A DNA stretch of 22,637 nt from a virus: IMG/VR virus record IMGVR_UViG_3300047476_000983, positions 1 to 22,637 of that record, one strand, 5' to 3'. This document shows, piece by piece, positions 1,376-14,228 of this stretch (position 1 is its first letter; every line of letters starts with the position of its first letter). The position numbers and the translations under genes were made by a program. Under the pieces are notes generated by a model that did no database searches, had not been told where the DNA came from, and was given only the letters and a program-made list of their open reading frames with translations.

Positions 1376-4300
1376 ATGACTTGTACTTACCGGTTTACAG
1401 GCACCGACGGTAAGGAAGTAGTTATCACGGGACAAGCCGCGTTCAAAGCGTTCCTTGCTGACGGCGGTTTGACCCAGTTACTGCCAGAACGTGAACTGCC
1501 GGGAGCGCCTGCGCTTAGTCGCCGTCAAACAGAGACGCCCGCATTCAAGAGCTGGTTCAAAGATAGCAAGGTGGTCGACGCGAACGGCAAGCCGCTGGTC
1601 GTGTATCACGGCAGTACTGCTAAAGGTGTGACCGTGTTCGATACCACTCGGGTTACTAAACGTACCGCAGCTGGCGACGTGCCGGGTACTTATTTCACCG
1701 CAGACGAAAGAGCCGCAAACAATTTCACCCGTGAGTTTGGTGCCCCTATTCGTGCGCCAAGGGGTGAGGTCGTTGCCGCGTATCTGCGAATCGAGAACCC
1801 GCTCAATACTACTGCCGCGATAAAGAAGTATCGCAAACAAGGTATGTCTTTTGGTGATGCAAAACGTAAAGCCCTTGAAGCGTTGACGCCAGAAAATGAC
1901 GGAATAATTTTTGACGGAGATGGTGTTAACCCGTCTGAATACGTAGTCTTTAAACCGGAACAAATTAAATCCGCTACCGGCAATATCGGTACATTCGACG
2001 AAACTAATCCAGACATCCGCTATCAACGCCGCCAGCGTGGCCGCGAAACCGAGGGCTGGATTCTCAGCCGGGATGAGCTTGGCCGTTTCCGTTTCGGTGC
2101 CGGTGCCAAAACCTATCGCCTTGTCGCTGATGTCGCAAACAATGTACTCGACAAGCTCAAACTCAAGCCTGTCAGCGAAGACCTTGGCCGCGCGATGCGC
2201 AGGATGAAAGCCGAGGTTGAGCGGGCGCAGCGCTTGACCGTAGACGTGGCCGGAAAGATGAAAGACCTGTCAGAGCAAGAGCGGCAGATGATCAGTGACG
2301 TGATTGAAGGTGAATTGAAGCGCGGCGTCAAGCCGCCACAGCACGTCCTGATGCTGGCTGCTTCTCTGCAGTCGATCATGTCCGAACAATCGGCCGAGCT
2401 GGTGCGCCTCGGTATGCTGTCACCTGAAGCCGCTGGCCGGTGGGATGGTAAGTACCTGCCGCGATTCTACGAACAGAAGCTGGGCAACGAAGTCAAAGCT
2501 TGGACTAAGGCAGCCAAAGCTCTGCTGGGTAAGAAGAAAACCATGCAAGGCATCGGCGGTTCCAGTTTGAAATCGCGCGGCATGTTTGAGTTGGTTGACG
2601 TCAATGAAATGCAAGACTGGATCGACGAAGGTTGGGAAGTTCGTGATCAGGAGTTTGACCCGGCCGTCGACGACACCGTCATGATGTGGCGCGATTACAC
2701 GCGCAAAGAGCGCGACGACATGGGCGAGATTCGTGACGCCATGTTCCGCTTTGTCATGGGGTACAACAAGTCCCAGCGTGACATCGCGCTTGGTCGTCTG
2801 TACGAATCACTGGCACAGAACTACGCCAGCAAGAAAGAGAAGCCCGGCTATGTCAAAGTGCCGGACTTTTTGGTCCAAGATACCTTCGCCCGCCGATACG
2901 GCAAGCTGGCCGGCATGTGGGTACCCGCTGAAGTCTTAGACCACCTGTCAGCGTTTGATCAGTCACAGCAGAACGAGCTGATCAAGATGTACCTGAAGGG
3001 CCTGTCCATGTGGAAGGAAGGCAAGACGGTACTGAACCCGGTATCGCATGCGAACAACGTGCTGTCGAACCTGACCATGGCGCACTTCGCGGGCGTGTCC
3101 TATTGGGACATAGGTAAGTACGCTGGCGCTATGCGTGATCTGTTGAAGAACACACCGATGGTGCAAGAGGCGCTTGACGCCGGGCTATTCGGTGGCACGT
3201 TCAACCGCGCCGAGCTGTTGGATCAGATGCCGCCTCAGCTCAAAGCTTTGGCCGGCATGAGCGAGTCGCGTTTAAAGAAAGGCGTCGACACCGTATGGAA
3301 TGCATTGAGCTGGTTCCTGCGCAAACCTGCAGCAACTGCGTATCAAGCTGAAGATCAGTTCTTCCGCTATCTGATTTACAAAGACGCGCGCGATCGCGGG
3401 CTTGATGTGGAAGACGCGATCGACTATTCGCAGAACTACATCTTCACCTACGACGATCTACCGAAGACGGCTCGCACTTTGCGTGACTATGCGTTGCCGT
3501 TCTTTGCCTACACCTACAAGGTCGTGCCACCGCTGGTCAACACAGCACTGGAAAAGCCTTGGCGCTACGCGGCGCCAGCTGCTGCGCTGTACACCGTCAA
3601 CGCGCTGATGTACGCCATGGCTGCGTCACTGGGCGGCGGTGAGGACGAAGACTGGTGGACTGTGATCCAGCGCTATGTCACCGACCCTGACTTCCGTGAC
3701 AAGGCCCGCAAGCTTGAAGAGCAAGAGCGCGAATTCTTGCCGCCATGGATGAAGGGCATGAGCGCCACACTAGCCACGCCGAAGGCTATTCGTTTGGGCA
3801 TGGACGACGTGACGAACCTGCCGGTGTTCATGGATGTCAGTCGTATATTCCCGGGCGGCGATCTGCTGGATGCGCATTCAAACGCTGGCGGGGTTCCATT
3901 GCTCCAGCCAATAACACCAAGCAATCCCATACTCAACACGGCCGGAGTTATGCTCTGGAATAAGGATAGTTTCTTCGGTAAAGATGTTGTCGATAAGAAT
4001 GACACGGCTGCCGAGGCGAGCGAGAAGCGTAGCAAGTGGGTATGGCAGCAGTTCGCTCCTGCCGTCGCTGTAGGTAATTACCACTGGGATCGCGCCATGA
4101 ACGTCATCGCCAATCAGGCAGGCCAGCCTATCCTCGGTTATACCGGCATCGGTAAAGACGGTCTCCCCGTCCAAGCTGGTTACGCTGCCGCTCAAACCGT
4201 CGGCCTCAAGATTCGACCGATCGATCTGGAACTGTCCGAACAGATCGCCAAATCCGAAAGGGAAAAACTCATTCGTGATCTGGATGCCGAAATCAGACAG

Positions 4301-12638: not shown

Positions 12639-12666
12639 GCTGGTCCTTTCTTAACCCGCTCGGCGG

Positions 12667-12695
12667 ATGCTACCACCACCTATCCGGGCGTGCAA
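12667..12695 (-). promoter_or_regulatory. Leftward sigma-70-type promoter
   Basis: On the minus strand TTGCAC (12695-12690) and TAGCAT (12672-12667) are separated by exactly 17 bases, matching sigma-70 -35 and -10 elements at five of six and four of six positions. Transcription would begin near 12660, about 22 bases before the ATG at 12638, leaving room for the AAAGGA ribosome site. It would drive the whole leftward replication operon. Confidence 0.6.
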
Positions 12696-12703
12696 GAGTC
12701 TAG

Positions 12704-12730
12704 TTGATACTGATTGATACTGATTGATAC
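12704..12730. promoter_or_regulatory. Three in-phase TTGATAC direct repeats, candidate operator
   Basis: TTGATAC occurs at 12704-12710, 12714-12720 and 12724-12730, exactly 10 bases apart, each followed by TGA or GG. The repeats lie between two divergent promoters, 8 bases from the leftward -35 and 17 bases from the rightward -35. Sites on one face of the helix are typical of cooperative binding by a regulator that represses or activates both directions. Confidence 0.6.
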
Positions 12731-12747
12731 GGCAATACACGGAGTAC

Positions 12748-12776
12748 TTGCGCCCCGGGTACGTGCGGGCTATTAT
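12748..12776 (+). promoter_or_regulatory. Rightward sigma-70-type promoter, possibly giving a leaderless mRNA
   Basis: TTGCGC (12748-12753) and TATTAT (12771-12776) are spaced by exactly 17 bases. The ATG of the first rightward gene begins at 12783, only 7 bases past the -10 box, which is where transcription normally starts. The transcript may therefore begin at the A of the ATG. No good ribosome site precedes that ATG. Confidence 0.55.
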
Positions 12777-12782
12777 CCACGC

Positions 12783-12980
12783 ATGGATCACATTACGCTC
12801 GTTCTTGATTTGCTCTCGTTGCAAAACCTAATGCAGGGGAAAGACATCGTCTTCACCTCTGACGATGGCACGGGCATCCCGATCGTGGTGACCTGTGACG
12901 TAAATACAACACAGGCCATGCGCGCGGCAGTGCACATGGCTATGCTGAACCTGCTACCCCCGGCGCCCGGGGTTCACTAG
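12783..12980 (+). CDS. Small protein (65 aa), first gene of the rightward operon
   Basis: Starts MDHITLVLDLLSLQNLMQGK, then a beta-rich DIVFTSDDGTGIPIVVTCDV, then a helix TTQAMRAAVHMAMLNLLPPA. A TTG 23 codons upstream would extend it, but that codon lies inside the TTGATAC repeats and upstream of the promoter, so ATG 12783 is preferred. There is no convincing Shine-Dalgarno, consistent with leaderless translation. It is not an HTH protein by eye, so not an obvious repressor. It is followed after 9 bases by the next gene. Confidence 0.65.
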   Translation: MDHITLVLDLLSLQNLMQGKDIVFTSDDGTGIPIVVTCDVNTTQAMRAAVHMAMLNLLPPAPGVH

Positions 12981-12989
12981 GAGACCGTT

Positions 12990-13145
12990 ATGAAAAAAGC
13001 ATTTTGGGATAAGCCTGCCCCCGAGGGCAAGCCGAAGAAGCTGACCGCTGCACAGAAGCTGGCCGCCAAGAAGCGCGCCGCTGAAGCCGGCCGGCCCTAC
13101 CCGAATCTGGTTGACAACGCCGCAGTTGCGCGGCGTAGCAAATAG
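12990..13145 (+). CDS. Small conserved basic phage protein (51 aa)
   Basis: Direct translation gives MKKAFWDKPAPEGKPKKLTA, then AQKLAAKKRAAEAGRPYPNL, then VDNAAVARRSK. The Lys/Ala-rich helix followed by 'AGRPYPNLVDN' is a pattern shared by many small phage and prophage proteins whose function is unknown. The basic helix suggests contact with DNA, RNA or an acidic partner. ATG 12990 follows AGGAG at 5-7 bases. Too short for many gene callers. The next 300 bases are the structured region. Confidence 0.75.
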   Translation: MKKAFWDKPAPEGKPKKLTAAQKLAAKKRAAEAGRPYPNLVDNAAVARRSK

Positions 13146-13175
13146 GCAACGCACGCGCGTAGCGCCCAGCGGTGG

Positions 13176-13463
13176 GTGGCGCGGAGCGCTTTTGTGGTAA
13201 CCCCCGCAGCTGGGGTCGGGTTGCCCCTCGCAATCTCACTACCCGATGACCCAGCGGACACCCCGGAAAGACGGGGGCTTACACGAATGGACAAGCCAAG
13301 GGTGATAGTGGCAATCGCACACAGCCGTTCAGGGGAATGCAACTTGTCCATCCGTGTTGGTGAGTGGCAGACCGCACCACTGCCCATGAGAGAGAACCAA
13401 CATGACAGCCCGGAAAGACGGGCTCTTATTAACCGGCCACCGCAAGGTGGCGTTCATTTCTAG
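13176..13463 (+). CDS. Possible small protein overlapping the structured region
   Basis: A 95-codon frame starts at GTG 13176; an inner ATG at 13287 (58 codons) is preceded by GGGGG and would lie inside the long inverted-repeat stem. It contains FVVTPAAGVGLPLAISLP and two related octamers, DTPERRGL and DSPERRAL, which are simply the translations of the two GAAAGA-loop hairpins. The spacing 'FVxTPxAG...ASL..P' recalls Icd-like/Ash proteins of P1/P4-type immunity regions, from memory only. Its stop TAG merges into the AGGGGG ribosome site of the next gene 8 bases on, as real operon genes often do. The composition is dictated by the repeats, so it may not be translated at all. Confidence 0.35.
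   Translation: MARSAFVVTPAAGVGLPLAISLPDDPADTPERRGLTRMDKPRVIVAIAHSRSGECNLSIRVGEWQTAPLPMRENQHDSPERRALINRPPQGGVHF
13281..13357. repeat. Long inverted repeat, 15-base arms
   Basis: ACACGAATGGACAAG (13281-13295) pairs with CTTGTCCATCCGTGT (13343-13357) with a single mismatch, enclosing 47 bases. As RNA this stem would bury the ATG at 13287 and the GGGGG before it could act only when the stem is open. Confidence 0.8.
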
Positions 13464-13471
13464 GGGGTCCT

Positions 13472-13702
13472 ATGACGGACAGAGCTTTGCTGCAGGCAGC
13501 CCTGCATGCACTGGAAAAGTATGCGCTCAACAAAGAACCGAAACTGGTACAGCAGATTCGTGATCAGCTGAAGAAGCCGGCCCGTGATCCGGCGGTATAC
13601 GTTCTCGGCGAAGGCAATCGGGTCGCATTAGAAAAACTTAACTCAGACCTGAAGATGAAGCGCAGCAGAAGGCGGACTGTCGACACCGTGGAGGGCGTAT
13701 GA
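13472..13702 (+). CDS. Small phage protein (76 aa), unknown function
   Basis: An N-terminal helix pair (MTDRALLQAALHALEKYALN, then LVQQIRDQLKKP) is followed by a short strand region (VYVLGEGNRVALEKL) and a basic tail (MKRSRRRTVD). No known family. The ATG follows TAGGGGGTCC, which also carries the stop of the preceding frame. It shares an ATGA with the membrane-protein gene downstream. The basic tail could bind nucleic acid. Confidence 0.7.
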   Translation: MTDRALLQAALHALEKYALNKEPKLVQQIRDQLKKPARDPAVYVLGEGNRVALEKLNSDLKMKRSRRRTVDTVEGV

Positions 13703-13860
13703 GTTTGTGGGATAACTTAGCAGCCTCTCTGCTTATTGCTTTCATCGGGTTTCTGTTTGGCTGGATTTTCACGCACTCAGAAATCGCCACAGAGTGTCAA
13801 CGCCAAGGGAGTTTCTATGTCGGAGACAAGGACTTCAAATGCGAGGTGATCAAGCGATGA
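13699..13860 (+). CDS. Small single-pass membrane protein with external cysteines (53 aa)
   Basis: MSLWDNLAASLLIAFIGFLF gives one transmembrane helix of about residues 7-25 (to GWIF), followed by a soluble tail with two cysteines (TECQRQGSFYVGDKDFKCEV). The tail would be periplasmic if the N terminus is inside, and Cys33 and Cys48 could form a disulfide. The 'C..QGSFYVGDKxFxC' pattern is common in short phage inner-membrane proteins. ATGA overlaps on both sides tie it to its neighbours. Function unknown. Confidence 0.75.
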   Translation: MSLWDNLAASLLIAFIGFLFGWIFTHSEIATECQRQGSFYVGDKDFKCEVIKR

Positions 13861-14228
13861 CTACACAACATAAAGCCTTGCAAGTGCCGCTGTACGAACT
13901 GCTTGAGGCCGTTCCTAAAGACACCCGTATCGGCGTTCACGATAGCGATGAATGGAATGCAGGAACAACTTGGCATCCTGTTGGCGCAATGTGTCATCAA
14001 GCCGCCGCCGAACTACGCCGACTTCAAGAGGTGAATACTGAGTTGGTGGAGGCGTTGAAAGAGCTGCTTTTTGAAGAAGAAACACAAGATAACGGATTAA
14101 CTGAAGCGGTAATAATGTCTAATGATGAGTTTGTAAAATTTATGCGTGAAAGTGTGCGCAGCTATGAATCAGCAAAGGAAAAAGCACGTAAAGCTATCGC
14201 CAACGCTACAGGAGAAAACAATGGCTAA
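13857..14228 (+). CDS. Phage protein with AxATGE-type tail (123 aa)
   Basis: The start is ATG 13857 (ATGA overlap with the previous stop); upstream codons belong to the membrane-protein gene. The N-terminal part has VPLYELLEAVPKDTRIGVHD and a WHPVGAMCHQAAAELRRLQE helix; the C-terminal half is helical, ending YESAKEKARKAIANATGENN. That ending, and the 'NTELVEALKELL' helix, recur in the 14417 gene and the 21760 gene of this window, so this is a family of related phage proteins of unknown role. Codon use in its second half is more AT-rich than that of its neighbours. Confidence 0.75.
   Translation: MTTQHKALQVPLYELLEAVPKDTRIGVHDSDEWNAGTTWHPVGAMCHQAAAELRRLQEVNTELVEALKELLFEEETQDNGLTEAVIMSNDEFVKFMRESVRSYESAKEKARKAIANATGENNG

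Follow-up and report, generated by a model that had tools for sequence, protein, structure and literature searches.

Features of the locus

The window analyzed here is the whole 22,637-base stretch of the virus record IMGVR_UViG_3300047476_000983 (IMG/VR). The divergent gap between its leftward and rightward genes contains operator-like tandem copies of a 10-base unit (12704 to 12731; TTGATACTGATTGATACTGATTGATAC). A palindrome, CCCCCGGCGCCCGGGG, ends a 65-amino-acid (65-aa) open reading frame (ORF) at positions 12955 to 12973 and is the same in L002, the one close relative of the region studied below; L085, which was reached from this ORF, was rejected as a spurious match. Positions 12990 to 13145 encode a small Lys/Ala-rich protein of 51 aa (KLTAAQKLAAKKRAAEAGRPYPNLVDNAAVA), which has hundreds of relatives in IMG/VR, in varied gene contexts, and no Pfam or NCBIfam name. 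The hairpin core described below occurred in none of the 44 downstream flanks of these relatives that were examined; therefore, the core is not syntenic with the 51-aa protein.

The region that follows (13146 to 13463) precedes a gene whose ATG is at 13472. A first-pass annotation had described it as rich in inverted repeats and had interpreted it as a possible phage regulatory RNA overlapping a frame of the Ash or Icd type. The observation is confirmed, and the interpretation is partly supported. The fold of the plus strand was better than those of dinucleotide shuffles (z score, -2.5; 0 of 100 equal), with a weaker signal on the minus strand (z score, -1.6); the same region of L002 gave a z score of -3.6 against dinucleotide shuffles.

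All of the features of the region lie on the plus strand. A hairpin proposed at 13200 to 13216 can form, but L002 better supports an overlapping helix of approximately 13209 to 13221 with 13241 to 13255, which belongs to the predicted fold and is based on two sequences only, the window and L002. It is followed by the first TGACA-type hairpin (13256 to 13276), which consists of GGACA and the stem-loop CCCCG-GAAAGA-CGGGG (13261 to 13276). Immediately 3' of this hairpin is the 5' arm, X (13277 to 13295), of a long helix that encloses an interior, or payload, of 47 nucleotides (nt) (13296 to 13342) and closes with the 3' arm, X' (13343 to 13361), whose end, CCGTGTTGGT, is followed by GAG. The inverted repeat with 15-base arms noted previously (13281 to 13295 with 13343 to 13357) is present within this helix, with one A.C mismatch, and the pairing extends to the full length of both arms. 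Farther downstream are a small hairpin, GGCAG/CTGCC (13366 to 13384; TGGCAG/CTGCCA in L002), and a potential competing strand, X'' (13396 to 13403; ACCAACAT), which is the complement of GTGTTGGT in X' (13354 to 13361). The second TGACA-type hairpin (13403 to 13424) has TGACA itself, the stem AGCCCG/CGGGCT, and again the loop GAAAGA (stem-loop, 13407 to 13424), so that the two hairpins share a loop and differ in their stems, as first described. Finally, a hairpin with a GNRA loop, GCCACC-GCAA-GGTGGC (13436 to 13451), lies 5' of the next gene's ribosome site. An open frame of 95 codons (13176 to 13463) runs over these elements and was judged not to be a gene.

The conserved entity is an RNA

L002 was found in a search with a 105-residue reading of the region, which itself matched no phage DNA by blastn. 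Alignment of the DNA showed that the 95-codon frame is split in L002 by single- and two-base insertions or deletions and by an in-frame stop. The stems, in contrast to the frame, are kept by paired changes. Counted on the alignment by eye, double changes number four for the long helix, where ACACGAATGGACAAG/CTTGTCCATCCGTGT in the window becomes ACACGGAAGGGCAGC/GCTGCTCTTCCGTGT in L002, and one for each of three further elements: the GNRA hairpin (GCCGCC-GAAA-GGCGGC in L002, with the GNRA loop kept), the second GAAAGA hairpin (GCCCG/CGGGC to CCCCG/CGGGG), and the upstream helix (U-A to C-G, with C-G to U-G as a further change). Because the frame is broken while the stems are maintained by paired changes, the conserved entity is the RNA; the suggestion that a shared loop with different stems reflects selected RNA structure is thus borne out by real compensation. 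The best reading is that approximately 13209 to 13451 of the rightward transcript would be a structured noncoding phage RNA rather than a protein-coding sequence. The proposed sequestration of an ATG at 13287 by the long helix did not hold, since L002 has AAG at this position, and it is not a conserved feature.

The possibility that the region instead encodes a small protein of the Ash/Icd type, with the hairpins as by-products of its codons, is extremely remote. The length of the open frame and its string FVVTPAAG, which resembles the Ash motif, would favor a protein; however, the frame has no match in Pfam or NCBIfam, neither to Phage_ASH nor to an Icd-like family, it is frameshifted in L002, and its stems are compensated without codon conservation.

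The association of Ash with an immunity RNA, made in the first-pass annotation, is sound in phage P4. The P4 ORF annotated as 'cI gene product, transcriptional repressor' (1669 to 2085, minus strand) matches Phage_ASH (PF10554; E value, 4e-16) with residues 22 to 85 of the old 'cI protein' ORF, right over the Rfam C4 RNA (1921 to 2008). This placement suggests that part, at least, of the Ash family may be RNA read as protein. Rfam C4 (RF01695; E value, 2e-13), c4-a1b1, and isrK were all recovered in P4 with the same tool that was applied to the window. In the window, C4 was not found at the gathering threshold, and C4, c4-a1b1, and isrK gave no match at E values up to 10 (12650 to 14000 for C4); the C4-type identity suggested earlier was therefore not upheld. 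With no match to either Ash or C4, the window has been filed with neither. A search of 12 carrier records with PF10554 gave no match but was uninformative, since the controls gave none either.

A recurrent hairpin in unrelated phages

Each of the two GAAAGA hairpins is a copy of an element that consists of TGACA, a stem of 4 to 6 bp around the loop GAAAGA, and a trailing A, and that occurs in many unrelated phages. IMG/VR was first searched for two CGGAAAGACG cores 121 to 151 bases apart, and three further scans were made; in all, at least 341 instances were obtained in at least 289 DNA stretches. The TGACA and GAAAGA of the resulting logo were largely fixed by the search patterns; therefore, the variability of loop and flank is understated, and all counts are lower bounds. 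Loop variants such as GAAGAGA and GAACAGA were seen. The trailing A, present in 70% of instances, was not set by the pattern. Stems covary freely, and a length of exactly 5 bp is the commonest. In stems with the core CG-GAAAGA-CG, Watson-Crick pairs occupied both of the adjoining two positions in 65% of 283 cases, compared to 0 to 20% for eight permuted or other loops (4 to 12 cases each).

The carriers are phages of Pseudomonadota, Bacillota, Bacteroidota, and Cyanobacteriota; many are metagenomic contigs, which do not give the host. BLAST with two-copy queries added named phages: Stenotrophomonas phage BUCT708, Vibrio phages, Bacteroides phage BS-TP2, Erwinia phage phiEt88, Xanthomonas phage FoX2, Microcystis phage Mvi-JY20, and Bacillus phage 031MP003. 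In 5,426 Escherichia coli genomes, the two-copy query matched at two places, both of them in prophage regions, where the gap behind a CI-like gene holds the match. Among 299 genomes of Pseudomonadota, the pattern was found 7 times, in 6 genomes, versus 5 times for a reversed control pattern; therefore, this is not a general bacterial element. Five matches of the double-hairpin pattern in genome contigs were set aside as chance or repeats. Several further RNA modules, such as GGCATATGGCATATGTGTCGCAGCGGCC and GATTCACCATCNTGGCGGTACGGTGT, are common to the E. coli prophages and BUCT708 in this gap, and these had no Rfam match at the thresholds used.

In the loci scanned, no Rfam family, C4 included, covered either the hairpin or the window at gathering and relaxed thresholds. 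A keyword-level survey of the literature, with subscription papers mostly outside its range, yielded no description of a TGACA-GAAAGA hairpin, which does not prove priority. Mimicry of a CRISPR repeat, suggested by the shape CCCCG-6 nt-CGGGG, was set aside, as the loop is constant and the stems are not. The two loops (13266 to 13271 and 13413 to 13418) lie in GGAAAGAC, which is identical to 23S rRNA positions 2056 to 2063, the Erm and TLR13 site (PMC7449152 and PMC12887398); this identity is probably a coincidence.

The long-stem cassette and its payload

In the subgroup to which the window belongs, RCYAACACG comes after the hairpin, then an interior that varies, and lastly CGTGTTGGTGA. Covariation was analyzed in 11 phages, with the window and L002 left out. 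In this set, 95.2% of the cells were paired and 13 of the 23 pairs had double changes; the double compensatory changes numbered 34 cells, whereas shuffles gave 8.8 and slid structures no more than 14. A covariance model, R1, was built from the same 11 phages, again without the window or L002, and it matched the window at 13256 to 13364 (58.2 bits; E value, 3.3e-17) and, over the second hairpin, at 13403 to 13468 (29.2 bits; E value, 4.2e-8), although these E values are rough because calibration was short. The window is thus a member of a family of RNAs in which a TGACA hairpin is combined with a long stem. R1 also matched copies in Vibrio, Xanthomonas (FoX2), Erwinia, and E. coli prophage DNA, and it had no match in five bacterial genomes.

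The interior varies between members. In L290 and L333 it is, by eye, a whole tRNA; in the window it is not tRNA-like. The coliphages CUS-3 and HK629 and Klebsiella phage Magnus have a related module that lacks the exact hairpin and whose interior is tRNA-like by eye. In these phages the region has no annotation, bears the label 'boundary sequence', or has been assigned small hypothetical ORFs.

X' (GTGTTGGTGA) has a second complement downstream, which reads CACCAAC, CACCATC, CACCAC, or CGCCACAAC in different phages. Across members, this third strand changes with X', although the signal is modest (pooled chi-square, 97 on 52 degrees of freedom); in the window by itself, the third strand, X'', is not significant (P = 0.44).

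Position relative to tRNAs and genes

In 24 of the 335 instances listed, a tRNA starts 1 to 9 nt past the stem, where 0.4 would be expected. A long helix (score of at least 28) abuts the hairpin in 9.0% of instances, compared to 0.7% of control positions; where present, it has 15 to 23 bp and a variable interior, sometimes a whole tRNA. The fraction of hairpins that fall inside ORFs of at least 90 codons is 0.37, versus 0.72 for random positions, and for hairpins outside ORFs, the downstream gene is on the same strand 154 times versus 43. Most instances adjoin neither a tRNA nor a long helix; therefore, one function may not cover all of them. The second hairpin of the window lies upstream of an mRNA rather than of a stable RNA domain. 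In Vibrio phage 1.033.O (L238, 2991 to 3062), a tRNA-Gly is annotated on the wrong strand; both Infernal and the position of the T-loop assign it to the opposite strand, which agrees with the hairpin.

Interpretation and alternatives

Compensated structure, family membership, position before tRNAs and genes, and strand bias are established by these data. We postulate that the hairpin is a general phage RNA signal, that it punctuates polycistronic phage transcripts, here within a cassette-like RNA, and that it acts at the RNA level as a site for a nuclease or a binding protein, a proposal that we consider to have an even chance of being correct. The core would be the first hairpin and the long helix holding a variable interior, with the second TGACA hairpin and the GNRA hairpin ahead of the site at which ribosomes would bind for the gene at 13472. 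On the 5' side, the TGACA hairpin would delimit either a stable RNA unit (a tRNA, or a tRNA-like or C4-like domain in a long stem) or the next message. It could serve as the landing or cutting site of a nuclease or RNA-binding protein, which would free or protect the unit downstream. Since tRNAs and C4-like stems are RNase P substrates, processing would be the most likely use; both this role, whether processing or protection, and the kind of factor involved are inferred.

It is possible, if unlikely, that the RNA is instead a C4-like antisense regulator, whose long-stem domain would be processed out and whose loop would control immunity or lysis genes by pairing with targets, either in the phage itself or in a competitor. 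The outline is C4-like, with a stem of approximately 17 bp around approximately 45 nt, the hairpins of the E. coli prophages and BUCT708 lie in the gap after CI-like genes, and the long stem of the C4 RNA of P1/P7 is cut by RNase P at its 5' end (Hartmann 1995, cited in PMC5320573). Prophage small RNAs such as STnc100 and PasD are known as well, PasD being located near Q-type antiterminator genes (PMC13192938). However, there is no Rfam C4 match, the interior pairs with no site in the window better than shuffled interiors do, the best target sites of the window and L002 do not correspond, and different phages lack a conserved interior, which can even be a tRNA.

There are two other explanations. 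One, which we regard as improbable, is that the hairpin is a module boundary at the DNA level, used as a short homology or as a single-strand hairpin for module exchange. Ends of segments with at least 85% identity fell in the motif 92 times, versus approximately 11 under uniformity; approximately ten independent phage groups, as judged by eye, lie behind these 92 ends, which are not independent counts. L187 has a single hairpin where L102 has hairpin-cassette-hairpin, an exact cassette difference, and L146, L204, and L276, like L130 and L156, turn alike exactly at TGACA; part of the CUS-3 gap that holds the related module also bears a boundary label. However, weaker matches show no clear excess over that of a conserved motif by itself, mosaic joints cluster at gene edges anyway, the same-strand bias and the spacing to tRNAs point to RNA, and stems that differ within one genome would be of lower value as homology. 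Sharp similarity boundaries fit punctuation at unit edges as well as they fit recombination. Equally improbable, or slightly more so, is a transcription control element of the early rightward operon, such as a nut- or put-like antiterminator or the site of a phage protein. A fixed loop on a free stem is reminiscent of boxB-type sites, the location, with two small genes at the start of the operon ahead of it, is like that of nutR, and some phages have several copies; nevertheless, no boxA is conserved between the window and L002 (the candidate GCTCTTATTAA, which lies 3' of the second hairpin, does not recur in L002), the spacing of 1 to 9 nt before tRNAs is not explained, and the carriers infect several bacterial phyla. 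We know of no protein that is common to the hairpin-carrying phages of these phyla.

More tentatively, and with some doubt, punctuation by the hairpin may be part of a broader pattern, in which the element would be a previously undescribed RNA signal of phages of several phyla, carried in mobile cassettes with interchangeable payloads (tRNA, tRNA-like, or antisense) and with a stem that is switched by the third strand. Noncoding gaps and tRNA clusters of phages are usually left blank or given doubtful small ORFs. If this reading is correct, the hairpin would offer a way into the processing and protection of noncoding RNAs by phages, such RNAs could be detected by computer, and some annotated small ORFs, for example, the P4 Ash frame, would be explained as RNA and not protein.

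Comparison with known systems

Similar in outline is the C4 RNA (RF01695) of P1, P7, and P4, which is likewise a phage RNA with a long stem around approximately 45 nt, is located in the immunity region, and in P4 overlaps the Ash frame. It differs in that its model does not match here and no TGACA hairpin was seen in P4 C4; moreover, the interior of the present RNA is unconserved and an antisense partner was not found. STnc100 and PasD (RF02076) are also prophage RNAs, and Magnus, a carrier of related modules, has a near-threshold STnc100 match (L451, 3095 to 3227; 44.9 bits, with a cutoff of 47) in a stretch with further unannotated structured RNA modules. However, Rfam gave no match to this family in the window, and the hairpin is not described in the passages of PMC13192938 that were consulted. 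GOLLD and ROOL are large structured noncoding RNAs that occur in phages (PMC12286853). Neither was matched by Rfam in the loci scanned. The PeSL promoter-stem-loop cassettes of T4-type phages, reportedly the subject of work by Arbiol in 2010 that tied them to module shuffling, are similar as small hairpin cassettes linked to the shuffling of phage modules; PeSLs, however, are promoters with terminators, and the present hairpin has no T-run and no consistent promoter. The lambdoid 'boundary sequences' are also comparable: in CUS-3 (bsq3 and bsq4), the labelled gap between Q and the holin gene holds a related long-stem module, and in HK629 such a module precedes the holin gene. These copies are missing the exact TGACA hairpin, and their labels denote boundaries, not structured RNA.
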